Virus record (IMG/VR): IMGVR_UViG_3300045999_004281
Location: 1-64,000 of that record
Direction: 5' to 3' (one strand)
Source: a virus
Length of the DNA stretch: 64,000 bases
In this document: positions 46,276 to 51,635 of the stretch, piece by piece
Numbering within the stretch: position 1 is the stretch's first letter
Layout of the letters: each line of letters opens with the position of its first letter
The notes under the pieces: generated by a model
What the model was told of the DNA's origin: nothing
What the model saw: the letters and a program-made list of their open reading frames with translations, nothing else
Databases searched by the model: none
Position numbers and translations under genes: made by a program

Positions 46276-47145
46276 TTACCACTTGAACTTGTTGATGATC
46301 TCGTCAACCGACGACTTGAGTTCGGCCCGGGCCGACGGGAGTTTGCGCAGGTCCTCCGGGTCAACACCAACCAAGGCTTTCTCAAGCATGCGTCGGGCAT
46401 CTTCGAGCTGCGGGTCCTTGGTCACGTTGAGCTTGGACAACAGCGCGCACAACTCCAGCGGCTTGTTCACGATCGAGTCGCGGAAGATGTTGCGCGTGCC
46501 ATCGGGCGCGTCGGTCAGCCGCTCGACCATGTGCGACAGCATGGCGTGCAGCCGCTCCCACGGTTCGCGCATGGCCTCGGCCACCTTCTGGTTGAACATC
46601 TTGTCGTACTGCTCGGCCAAGTCTTGGCGCACTCGGTCCTCGCACTGGATACGGAAGTCACCCTTCTCCGGCACAGGCAGGAAGTTGAACTCGAACTTGA
46701 AGCGCCGGGGCAGCGTCTCCACGTCGGGGAACTCCTCGGCCACGAAGTAGTCGCCGAGCTTGAACGCTTGCGCGCTAACCAGTGATGGGTAGATCTTGAT
46801 GAAGTCCTCGACCAGCGCGTTGAAGTTGGCCTCCATCGTGCCGAGCTGATCCCGATACGCGAAGAAGTTCTCCATCGGCAGCAGGCCCACGCCCTTCATC
46901 CACGGGAGGGTTTGCTGGTTGTTCCAAGCACGACACTTAGCAGCGTACTTGTTGATCTTGGACAGGTGATCGCTGCCCGCCATCAGGTACTTGTAGACCG
47001 CGCCCGCCTCGGAGTCGGCGTTCTTGGACTTGTTGACCTCGTCGGTCGTGTCGTTGTCACGCTTGCGCGCAGTCCACGTGCTGATACGCAGCTCGACCAG
47101 CATGGCCATGGATGACAAAGAAAGGGTAGGCGTTTCAAAGTTCAT
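46276..47145 (-). CDS. DUF3150-like protein (289 aa)
   Basis: Start set at MNFETPTLSLSSMAML, preceded by the shared leader CTTTGGAGA. LVELRISTWTARKRD, NKSKNADSEAGAVYKYL, WMKGVGLLPMENFFAYRD and a helical remainder match my recollection of DUF3150 proteins, which are commonly encoded with MoxR-type ATPases and VWA proteins. Both partners are encoded in this operon. The family name is not verified. Confidence 0.65.
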   Translation of the reverse strand: MNFETPTLSLSSMAMLVELRISTWTARKRDNDTTDEVNKSKNADSEAGAVYKYLMAGSDHLSKINKYAAKCRAWNNQQTLPWMKGVGLLPMENFFAYRDQLGTMEANFNALVEDFIKIYPSLVSAQAFKLGDYFVAEEFPDVETLPRRFKFEFNFLPVPEKGDFRIQCEDRVRQDLAEQYDKMFNQKVAEAMREPWERLHAMLSHMVERLTDAPDGTRNIFRDSIVNKPLELCALLSKLNVTKDPQLEDARRMLEKALVGVDPEDLRKLPSARAELKSSVDEIINKFKW

Positions 47146-47303
47146 TTCGTTTCTCCAAAGTAGGATGCGAGAAGGTGGCGGACCACCTGACCATTGGTGG
47201 GCATGAAGCCCAGTGTTGCGACTAGATCGTCGCGAACCTTCATCAGCAGCAGCCACGTCTCGTGGTTCACGCGGATGCTGTAGTTCATGTCGTCGTTCTT
47301 CAT
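47142..47303 (-). CDS. very small protein, ribbon-helix-helix-like (53 aa)
   Basis: ATG overlaps the upstream stop (ATGA), and its stop overlaps the next ATG. NYSIRVNHETWLLLMKVRDD followed by TNGQVVRHLLASYF has a strand-helix-helix layout like small ribbon-helix-helix DNA-binding proteins. The RBS of the next gene lies within its 3' end. Confidence 0.6.
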   Translation of the reverse strand: MKNDDMNYSIRVNHETWLLLMKVRDDLVATLGFMPTNGQVVRHLLASYFGETK

Positions 47304-47788
47304 TTGCTATCTCCTGTGATCCCGTGCTTGCGCTCGATGGCGCGAGTGCGCTCGTCCCTGCTCAAGTAAGTGCGCCATATCTCGTCAATCTCCTCCTCCG
47401 TCAGCGGCTGGCGCTGGGGCGGGGCGGTGTAGAGGGGCATGCATGTCCACCCCTCCGGCAAGTTACCTTTTGGGTCTTCGTAATGGATGTCATCTTCTTC
47501 GCCGTACGCGTCGATGGTCATCCACGCCACCGGCTGCTGCTTCTCCCGCTCCAGCGCTGCTCGCGCCTGCTTCGTGATGCGCTCAGCATCTTCCTCATTG
47601 GTCTTGGCCTTGATTGGGCTATACGGGGACTTGTGGTTGCAGTTCGGGCAGACAAGCCACTCGGTGTGAGGCTCCTGCTTCTCGGCCTGCTCAATGGCGG
47701 CGCGGAGTTTGCCAATTGTTTCTTCACGCCATGGACTGTCCTTCTCCAGCGCCTCCAGCGCCTGCTTCATCGTCTCAACGTAGTTCAT
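47300..47788 (-). CDS. conserved phage protein with PLYTAPPQRQPLT segment (162 aa)
   Basis: An N-terminal coiled-coil part (MKQALEALEKDSPW), a CPNC knuckle, PVAWMTIDAYGE, WTCMPLYTAPPQRQPLTEEE and a C-terminal helical end. This architecture is widespread in phages of enteric and aquatic bacteria, function unknown. GGGGGATAG precedes the ATG. Confidence 0.7.
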   Translation of the reverse strand: MNYVETMKQALEALEKDSPWREETIGKLRAAIEQAEKQEPHTEWLVCPNCNHKSPYSPIKAKTNEEDAERITKQARAALEREKQQPVAWMTIDAYGEEDDIHYEDPKGNLPEGWTCMPLYTAPPQRQPLTEEEIDEIWRTYLSRDERTRAIERKHGITGDSK

Positions 47789-48030
47789 TTGCTATCCCCC
47801 ATCAGCTTCATGTTCGAGTCGATCTCGATCTGCATAAGCGCAGTCATCGGGATCACCGCCGCTGCCTTGTACGACGGCGGCTTGATGATGTGCGACTTCT
47901 CGCTGGGCACGTCTTTGATCCACGCCCGCTCGACCACCGACGCGGAGTTCAGCGTCTTGGCTATGTCCATCGCTTCGTCGATCGACAGGAGAAACTTGGT
48001 CTCCCCGATCATCAGCATGACCTCACCCAT
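47785..48030 (-). CDS. small hypothetical protein (81 aa)
   Basis: The start overlaps the VWA gene stop by 8 bases. The N-terminal half (KFLLSIDEAMDIAKTLNSAS) looks helical, the rest polar with a Lys/Pro patch (SHIIKPPSYKAAAVIPM). Possibly a partner of the VWA protein because of coupling. No family recognised. Confidence 0.65.
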   Translation of the reverse strand: MGEVMLMIGETKFLLSIDEAMDIAKTLNSASVVERAWIKDVPSEKSHIIKPPSYKAAAVIPMTALMQIEIDSNMKLMGDSK

Positions 48031-50225: not shown

Positions 50226-50524
50226 TTGCTTTCTCCTTCCAAGTTACAGATACGCTCCAGAAGTTCTTCAACCTCCAGCCACTCAAGGCGACCCTCTACA
50301 TCGCTCGTGATCGGCGTGTCGTAGGTCAGGTCGTAGTCATCAATGCCCGCATCAGTCTCCGCGTTCCACTTGATCACGGCCAGCTCCCACTGACCCTCGG
50401 GCCCGCCGTAGCTGAACGCTGTGCGGATCACGCTCGCGCCGTACCCGTTGGGGAACCGGTACAACTTCTGCACACCACCCATCCCAGCGGGGTGGCTGCG
50501 CTCCTCGACTTGATACTCATCCAT
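50222..50524 (-). CDS. hypothetical protein (100 aa)
   Basis: Start set at MDEYQVEERSHPAGM with AAGGAG upstream; palindromic element copy 2 lies 14 bases before this ATG. Strand-rich N-terminal part (KLYRFPNGYGASVIRTA, WELAVIKW) and an acidic C-terminus. No domain recognised. Confidence 0.65.
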   Translation of the reverse strand: MDEYQVEERSHPAGMGGVQKLYRFPNGYGASVIRTAFSYGGPEGQWELAVIKWNAETDAGIDDYDLTYDTPITSDVEGRLEWLEVEELLERICNLEGESK

Positions 50525-50537
50525 TGCTTTCTCCTTA

Positions 50538-50564
50538 AACAATCCGACACGCTGTCGGTTAGTC
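50538..50564. repeat. palindromic element copy 2
   Basis: Left arm AACAATCCGACA, centre CGC, right arm TGTCGGTTAGTC; the inner 6 bp pair perfectly. It covers the stop codon of the MoxR gene and ends 14 bases before the next ATG. Confidence 0.8.
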
Positions 50565-51635
50565 CTTCAGCCCCGCGAACATGTACTGGTTCTCGCGAGC
50601 CCACGTCACGAACGACGGGTGCGTGAGCAGCCATGCCTTCTTGTCTTTGATCTCGAGCGCCGAGTTGATGAACACGGCTTGCGTCTCCTTGGGCATGCGA
50701 CGGACATACCGCATCCAAGTGGCGAAGTTCTCACGCGTGATGACCCGCACCGCCTTGAACACCAGAATGCACTGGGCCGCAGGCGAAGTGGGCACGATGG
50801 CCGAGTCCGGCGAGGTCTCGATGGATTCACGGGTCGGCAGTTGATCGGCCAGCTCGATGTAGCTCTGCAGGTCACGGCTTGCAGAGAACCCGATGGTGCC
50901 GTCGAGTGCGCCGATGAACGCGTTCTCGGTCAGCTTGTCACGCCGGGCCACCCAATGCGACGCCTTGACCAGCGAACGGGGCGAGACGAACGCAGTCTGC
51001 GACGCGTCGTTGGGGTTGAAGATGTAGGGGTTCTTCTCTTGGCCCGGATCCATGTACGACGCCATGCAGTACTCGGTCTCGTGGACCCACGCGATCACCT
51101 CCTCGGCCACGCCCGCGTTGTTCGCCCACGCACACCACTCCATGGCGGTCGGCTTCATGTAGTTGATCCACGTCTGGCGGTTGCGGGTATGGGCCTTGGC
51201 GCTGTCGCCCACGCCGTCCGTGACCATGTTGCCCGTGGTGAACACGATGGTGTCCGGGTGCAGGTTGAAGCTACCGAGGCGGCGCTCGTGCAGCAGCGGG
51301 TGCAGAGTGTTGCGCACGTAGTCGTCAGTCTTCGTCCACTCGTCGATCATGATGACCAGCGGCTCACCGGTGTGCAGCCCATAGGATGCAGCCGGATAGA
51401 AGTCCAGCGTGCGCGTCTCGTGGTTCGGGATGGGCATACCCGACTGGCCCACGTCGGTGTTGGGGCCGTCGATGTACACGCCCTTGAACCCGGTGCGAGC
51501 GATGATCTCCTTGTGCATGGCGGTCTTGCCGACACCGGGCTCACCCATGAGGTGCACGGCGTTGTCGCCCGCGTTGAGCAGCAGGTCAACGGACTCGGCG
51601 AAGTTGAGGCGACGGGACAGATTCAGATCAGACAT
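50559..51635 (-). CDS. MoxR-type AAA+ ATPase (358 aa)
   Basis: Start set at MSDLNLSRRLNFAES, preceded by the shared leader CTTTGGAGA. Walker A is GEPGVGKT (31-38), Walker B VIMIDEW (D98, E99), sensor 1 TTGNMV; the DVGQSGMPIPNHE insert is typical of the MoxR/CobS group. MoxR proteins act with VWA partners in metal insertion or complex assembly; a VWA protein and a DUF3150-like protein are in the same operon. Substrate unknown. Confidence 0.88.
   Translation of the reverse strand: MSDLNLSRRLNFAESVDLLLNAGDNAVHLMGEPGVGKTAMHKEIIARTGFKGVYIDGPNTDVGQSGMPIPNHETRTLDFYPAASYGLHTGEPLVIMIDEWTKTDDYVRNTLHPLLHERRLGSFNLHPDTIVFTTGNMVTDGVGDSAKAHTRNRQTWINYMKPTAMEWCAWANNAGVAEEVIAWVHETEYCMASYMDPGQEKNPYIFNPNDASQTAFVSPRSLVKASHWVARRDKLTENAFIGALDGTIGFSASRDLQSYIELADQLPTRESIETSPDSAIVPTSPAAQCILVFKAVRVITRENFATWMRYVRRMPKETQAVFINSALEIKDKKAWLLTHPSFVTWARENQYMFAGLKD

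Follow-up and report, generated by a model that had tools for sequence, protein, structure and literature searches.

Several described systems, among them RavA–ViaA, other MoxR–VWA pairs and CobS–CobT, couple an AAA+ motor to an adaptor that has a von Willebrand factor A (VWA) domain bearing a metal ion-dependent adhesion site (MIDAS); some of the complexes matured by MoxR ATPases are metalloenzymes. Pairs of this type are also encoded by viruses. In the archaeal Acidianus two-tailed virus (ATV), p892 is a binding partner of p618 and stimulates it (PMC4124505). In the N4-like phages, gp24 (an AAA ATPase) and gp25 (a vWFA/DUF2201 protein) belong to the core gene set and have no known function (PMC4193335, PMC2784036), being two of the five that are so listed. 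Below, we describe a related locus in IMG/VR virus record IMGVR_UViG_3300045999_004281, of which positions 1 to 64,000 were analysed; this whole stretch of 64,000 nucleotides is referred to as the window. Judged by sequence, an ATPase–VWA pair encoded in the window is the gp24/gp25 pair of phage N4, and it is accompanied by a third protein, of the DUF3150 family. The three genes lie on the minus strand within positions 46276–51635. Their motifs are intact, their linkage is conserved and they are inherited together, and we consider it highly probable, from these features and by analogy with the pairs named above, that their products act as a joint machine.

The three proteins

All three open reading frames are present and intact where an earlier note on this DNA, made from the letters alone, had placed them. 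Each starts with ATG behind a GGAG ribosome-binding-like site, has no internal stops and gives a product with a Pfam match. The first (50559–51635, minus strand) encodes a 358-residue AAA+ ATPase of the AAA_5/MoxR-like type, similar to N4 gp24. It scores 27.1 bits against Pfam AAA_5 (cut-off 22) and 143 bits against phrog_1297, and residues G34, G36 and K37 of Walker A, D98 and E99 of Walker B, N136 and R220 are invariant in 36 relatives. The MoxR-type assignment of the earlier note is thus upheld by the family score and by the intact Walker and sensor residues. The closest solved relative of the ATPase profile is Midasin (E value 1e-22), and ClpB is matched at 4e-10. It would be expected that the protein hydrolyses ATP as an assembled ring.

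The second gene (48023–49297, minus strand) encodes a 424-residue DUF2201 protein similar to N4 gp25, with an HExxH domain followed by a C-terminal VWA domain and MIDAS. Both Pfam domains are found in order, DUF2201_N (PF13203) with 94.6 bits over residues 26–280 (cut-off 23.2) and DUF2201 (PF09967) with 56.4 bits over 288–417 (cut-off 26.4); the score against phrog_1314 is 273 bits. The AlphaFold2 model (pLDDT 85) matches the VWA fold over residues 282–422 (Z 13.0, rmsd 2.6, 141 aligned residues) and also the MIDAS domain of Rea1, in agreement with the VWA assignment of the earlier note. The HExxH motif, at residues 75–79, lies within a predicted helix; the fold search barely reached the N-terminal domain, as the VWA domain filled the match list. 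In 47 VWA proteins H75, E76 and H79 are invariant, as are the MIDAS residues D293-x-S295-x-S297, T357 and D381, and the view that all catalytic residues are intact therefore stands for both the ATPase and the VWA protein. The N-terminal domain is a putative metallopeptidase. Its motif is kept in all 77 distinct viral copies, whereas 13 of 71 chromosomal copies have another residue in place of the glutamate, and ten of these retain the histidines. These losses are concentrated in a few bacterial groups and are therefore not independent events. That the glutamate is kept in every viral copy examined and lost in some bacterial ones makes the role of HExxH concretely testable. It should be added that phrog_1314 is named ‘HNH endonuclease’ in PHROGs and in many phage records; the DUF2201 domain content gives no support for this label, and its spread by PHROGs onto DUF2201 VWA proteins is now flagged.

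The third gene (46276–47145, minus strand) encodes a 289-residue protein of mixed strands and long helices. Its score against DUF3150 (PF11348), 25.7 bits, is barely over the cut-off of 24.9. This weak assignment is secured by two further results: 25 of 29 aligned relatives match PF11348 independently (best E value 2.4e-10), and the AlphaFold2 model (pLDDT 87) matches a viral protein named DUF3150 in a Foldseek search (E value 2e-19, TM-score 0.85). The DUF3150-like identity proposed earlier is thereby confirmed, and neither this protein nor the VWA protein, whose fold is the expected one, proved to have an unrelated fold. Foldseek found no match to the model in the PDB with an E value below 0.001, which is no proof of a new fold; the matches obtained with VIA-align (Z up to 8.8) are largely helical bundles. 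A search of BFVD with the same model gave no named N4-like match. A remote structural match to a Mycobacterium phage Dylan protein (E value 5.6e-3, TM-score 0.35), which has no sequence support, is a weak lead from the model; to judge from protein length the match is probably gp94 (275 residues), which adjoins a classical AAA ATPase (locus L213, 32933–35525). On a Manganitrophus plasmid (locus L110, 5731–8752), a DUF3150 gene split over two frames is accompanied by another AAA ATPase, DUF1257 and DUF2997, with no VWA gene, and on this account DUF3150 may partner different AAA motors.

Conserved linkage and co-inheritance

A scan of viral contigs seeded with the VWA protein gave 80 loci. The contigs are related, some being near-duplicates, and the viral counts are therefore not independent. 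In 72 of the 73 contigs with enough sequence the VWA gene is immediately preceded by the ATPase gene, DUF3150 is nearby in 40 of 42, and the genes are on one strand in all 80. Two gene orders occur: ATPase–VWA–DUF3150, which is that of the window (38 loci), and DUF3150–ATPase–VWA (26 loci). Among isolates, DUF3150 is found in the freshwater cyanophages MinM2, Pag-Yong1 and Pra-JY27, and MinM2 has the complete trio in a third order, ATPase–DUF3150–VWA. The pair without detected DUF3150 is found in N4-like phages, jumbo phages, a cyanophage and others. Because PF11348 misses many true members of the family, our own DUF3150 profiles were used.

The trio is not confined to viruses. Plasmids of Burkholderiales and Rhodovastum carry it in the order ATPase–DUF3150–VWA. 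Among 86 plasmid and genome loci, profiles found VWA in 85, the ATPase in 78 and DUF3150 in 51; the 80 genome loci span Acidobacteria, Proteobacteria, Bacteroidota, Planctomycetes and others, with the order ATPase–VWA–DUF3150 in Bacteroidota and DUF3150–ATPase–VWA in Rhizobiales. The genes thus co-occur in other phages, a point that the earlier note had put forward as a check, and also on plasmids and in bacterial genomes. The reverse test started from DUF3150, a profile of which was searched against 754 genomes (the seeds included) sampled from two classes: DUF3150 is rare there, and every non-seed gene lies beside an ATPase gene, with a VWA gene as well where the short locus reaches.

Evidence for co-inheritance comes also from the distances between homologs, which for the three proteins correlate at 0.87–0.94, compared with permutation maxima of 0.11–0.16. 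In each of the three trees the lineage of the window is a single clade, and MinM2 falls elsewhere; the simplest account of these trees is that the whole cassette entered phages at least twice. Since the genes co-vary, show three orders, and recur on plasmids and in several bacterial phyla, the trio is, on comparative grounds, a transferable functional unit. Bacterial cassettes are in several cases near RNase H, a sliding clamp, ParB or a PRTRC system. In Burkholderia and Acidobacteria they are often 5–9 kb from PRTRC genes (ThiF-type E1, Prok-E2_D), a predicted ubiquitin-like conjugation set; the loci flanked in this way are L106, L113, L114, L126, L127, L128, L133 and L134.

The proposed machine and its target

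We propose that the ATPase, the VWA protein and DUF3150 would work together as a single ATP-driven machine for remodelling. In it the AAA+ ATPase would be the ring motor, and the VWA protein the adaptor, the MIDAS metal site of which would grip an acidic residue of the target as in MoxR–VWA systems and Midasin. The HExxH domain would bind a metal and probably cut or clamp the protein that is held, and DUF3150, as a third subunit, would adapt the pair to one particular target or scaffold. The earlier note had likewise suggested a remodelling machine, leaving its target unnamed; this is a fair, though inferred, reading. The machine would most likely be active in genome replication, where it may loosen or clear a stable complex, of protein or nucleoprotein, that belongs to the phage or the host.

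The reason for favouring replication is the position of the genes. In the lineage of the window, the module shares a minus-strand arm with genes for a primase/helicase, a helicase, a DNA polymerase and a nuclease; terminase and portal are on the plus strand, opposite the module. Downstream are a VRR-NUC/Holliday-junction-resolvase-like nuclease (44147–44464, minus strand; phrog_93 endonuclease, Hjc 21.9 bits) and a family A DNA polymerase (42031–43848, minus strand; phrog_17), and both are found there in all 46 contigs with 9 kb of downstream sequence. As the genes adjoin this nuclease and polymerase in a replication arm, a replication-phase target appears likelier than tail assembly of the ATV kind. 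The link to tail development that the earlier note had drawn from ATV was not supported, the module being in the replication arm and on the strand opposite the structural genes. Six unlike isolates, RHph_TM27B, CRP-7, nACB1, SP-058, MIJ3 and Phosso, also have a DNA polymerase gene no more than about 9 kb from the pair, and N4 gp24 and gp25 are middle genes (PMC4193335). The RNase H, sliding-clamp, ParB and PRTRC neighbours of several bacterial cassettes point the same way. We assign the target to the replication phase tentatively, with slightly less than even confidence; to the favoured explanation as a whole, a joint remodelling machine acting in genome replication, we would give an even chance. 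A more far-reaching version, which we regard as rather unlikely, is that of a mobile phage and plasmid AAA+ machine in which an active metalloprotease would be gated by the ATP-driven ring and the MIDAS adaptor and directed to replication or transcription complexes by DUF3150, and which would also supply the missing function of N4 gp24/gp25.

Several observations weigh against a joint machine acting in replication. Proximity to a polymerase was judged on hand-picked isolates, and it is in part shared descent and in part the clustering of early genes. In ten isolate phages, profiles detected no DUF3150 closer than about 9 kb to the pair, nor was it detected beside the pair in many genomes; the core job therefore does not need it, and on this distribution DUF3150 is an optional third member. 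Loss of the HExxH glutamate from 13 of 71 chromosomal copies means that peptidase activity would be dispensable in some lineages. Finally, Asteriusvirus UB and Xanthomonas phage XaC1 have the pair amid structural genes, and virions of the jumbo phage phAPEC6 contain what, to judge from mass and gene neighbourhood, is probably its ATPase.

The last two observations favour a virion-assembly chaperone comparable to ATV p618/p892, in which case the pair would help tail proteins or internal virion proteins to fold or assemble, and might enter the particle. Virion mass spectrometry of phAPEC6 detected a 49.52 kDa ‘ATPase’ with six peptides (PMC7247149). The computed mass of the UB ATPase is 49,500 Da, and the nearby thymidylate synthase fits too (35.51 kDa against 35,509 Da); the Asteriusvirus MoxR-like ATPase (locus L200, 4926–6251) is probably phAPEC6 gp265c. 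The homolog of this ATPase in RaK2 bears the annotation ‘gp24-like’. Roseophage RPP1 has genes for four virion proteins close to the gp24/gp25 homologs, but none of the 13 tabulated virion proteins of RPP1/RLP1 is reported as a homolog of gp24 or gp25 (PMC4193335). The phAPEC6 list, moreover, includes thymidylate synthase and other non-structural enzymes, so that its contents may include carry-over, and the VWA partner cannot be recognized in it. The full trio occurs on plasmids and chromosomes, which have no virions, and in the lineage of the window it is kept in the replication arm, opposite terminase and portal. We therefore consider a role in virion assembly unlikely.

It might alternatively be supposed that the machine serves host takeover or counter-defence, disassembling or cutting a host complex (concerned with defence or transcription, for example) early in infection. 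The early or middle gene position, the mobility of the cassette among phages, plasmids and chromosomes, the use of MoxR–VWA pairs in conflict systems (PMC7159879) and the fact that viral copies have never lost the HExxH glutamate are all compatible with this. On the other side, PADLOC gave no match for the three proteins of the window, P4 (an accessory protein described below) or the plasmid homologs, and a known defence system was rejected, the module proteins having neither a PADLOC nor an NCBIfam match. Since the pair is core in N4-like phages of very different hosts (PMC4193335), a general phage function is suggested rather than one host target, and takeover seems doubtful.

The two remaining possibilities are weaker. 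One is that the ATPase–VWA pair alone is the machine and DUF3150 a passenger, or an independent protein of DNA metabolism, that is nearby by chance. The ten isolate phages and many genomes in which DUF3150 is undetected by the pair could be read in this way, as could the lack of a known partner for DUF3150 and its occurrence on the Manganitrophus plasmid with a different AAA ATPase and no VWA gene. Against this, the linkage persists across three gene orders and very different neighbourhoods, the distances of DUF3150 covary strongly with those of the pair (r 0.87–0.88), and DUF3150 genes in the drawn genomes are always beside the ATPase; we consider this reading very unlikely. The other, that the pair inserts a metal into an enzyme of the phage or host in the manner of CobS/CobT and other MoxR–VWA maturation systems, agrees with the description of MoxR ATPases (PMC3893208) as maturation chaperones of dedicated complexes and with the metal-ligand-like histidines kept by ten of the 13 chromosomal copies that lack the glutamate, but it is the least probable of all and was rejected as a chelatase reading, given that no CobN-type subunit (CobN/ChlH, PF02514) was found in the 65.8-kb record, which is possibly incomplete, whereas five control genomes were positive, and that no obvious gene for a metalloenzyme client lies beside the cassette.

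Neighbouring genes and comparison with described systems

The trio belongs to a tightly coupled string of genes that runs from the ATPase to a GP88 protein (PF17338, 145 bits; 44643–45350, minus strand), neighbours overlapping by 1–8 bases or being separated by 2–34 bases. A strong hairpin resembling an intrinsic terminator, with seven T (44604–44621, minus strand), follows the GP88 gene and ends the string. The single transcription unit of the earlier note agrees with this coupling; that the string is a single transcript is likely, and no more than likely, because a weak terminator-like hairpin (50558–50544) follows the ATPase stop. Small hairpins of the type CCGAC...GTCGG or CGAC...GTCG with T-rich tails recur between genes of this arm (50558–50544, 51678–51663, 54523–54507, 55842–55829 and 44574–44562), and terminator-like sites are about 2.4 times as frequent as expected from shuffled sequence.

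The accessory genes differ in how far they can be assigned to the module. P4 (45354–46265, minus strand), a protein of 303 residues whose start is 10 bases past the DUF3150 stop, is present in 31 of 42 related viral contigs with enough flank and has no Pfam or PHROG match. A search for close relatives gave none, yet profiles found P4 in 70 loci, so that the earlier absence was uninformative. As a universal fourth part P4 was rejected, no counterpart being found by profile or hhalign among the neighbours in MinM2, RHph_TM27B and CRP-7; judged by its distribution, P4 is an accessory member specific to the lineage of the window. An 81-residue protein (47785–48030, minus strand), which overlaps the VWA stop, and a 53-residue protein (47142–47303, minus strand), which overlaps the DUF3150 start, have no family match; iterated profiles found them in 51 and 43 loci, respectively, in relatives with arrangement A only. 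The 28-residue membrane open reading frame pointed out previously (49383–49297, minus strand) is present and does overlap the VWA start (TAATG), but it was rejected as a conserved part of the module, a similar frame being found in one relative only (L034). GP88 was likewise rejected, since among the viral loci fetched only the window itself matched. Elsewhere in the window, the C-terminal third of a 2358-residue protein of the structural arm (23157–30233) matches a DarB-like antirestriction PHROG.

Of the described systems, ATV p618/p892 resembles the pair by protein type, a MoxR-type ATPase accompanied by a VWA protein in a virus; p618, however, is one of the major virion proteins and has been tied to tail growth outside the cell, whereas the genes of the window are in a replication arm. 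Compared with RavA–ViaA and CobS–CobT, the VWA protein of the window has in addition a DUF2201_N domain, there is a probable third subunit in DUF3150, and no CobN was found in the genome record. In Rea1/Midasin, the ATPase and MIDAS are parts of one giant ribosome-assembly polypeptide and not the products of separate genes as here; the likeness to Midasin is a mechanistic analogy only. The MoxR–vWA ternary conflict systems do share with this locus the addition of a third conserved protein to a MoxR–VWA core, but that protein is VMAP or an inactive STAND (iSTAND), and DUF3150 is a different family (PMC7159879). DUF2201 goes unmentioned in the same paper. No description of the trio with DUF3150, of DUF3150 or of COG3864 was found in the literature searched, outside which most subscription journals fall.

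The closest system remains that of the N4-like phages (Schitoviridae), where homologous ATPase and DUF2201 VWA genes are adjacent and on one strand, as here. The tblastn matches in these phages include ‘N4 gp24-like’ proteins and DUF2201 VWA genes, and profiles match the pair of Salmonella phage SP-058 with E values of 3e-93 and 5e-90. An N4-type RNA polymerase (PF00940) was not matched in the genome of the window, but the control likewise gave no match. The pair, which recurs in jumbo, cyano- and other phages, is thus known as N4 gp24/gp25, and what appears new is DUF3150 as a third member, for which we found no earlier description. In the N4-like phages examined, DUF3150 was undetected near the pair, whereas in the phage of the window the pair carries both DUF3150 and P4; a core pair of the N4-like phages is now tied to a cassette of three genes that is mobile and includes a third partner.

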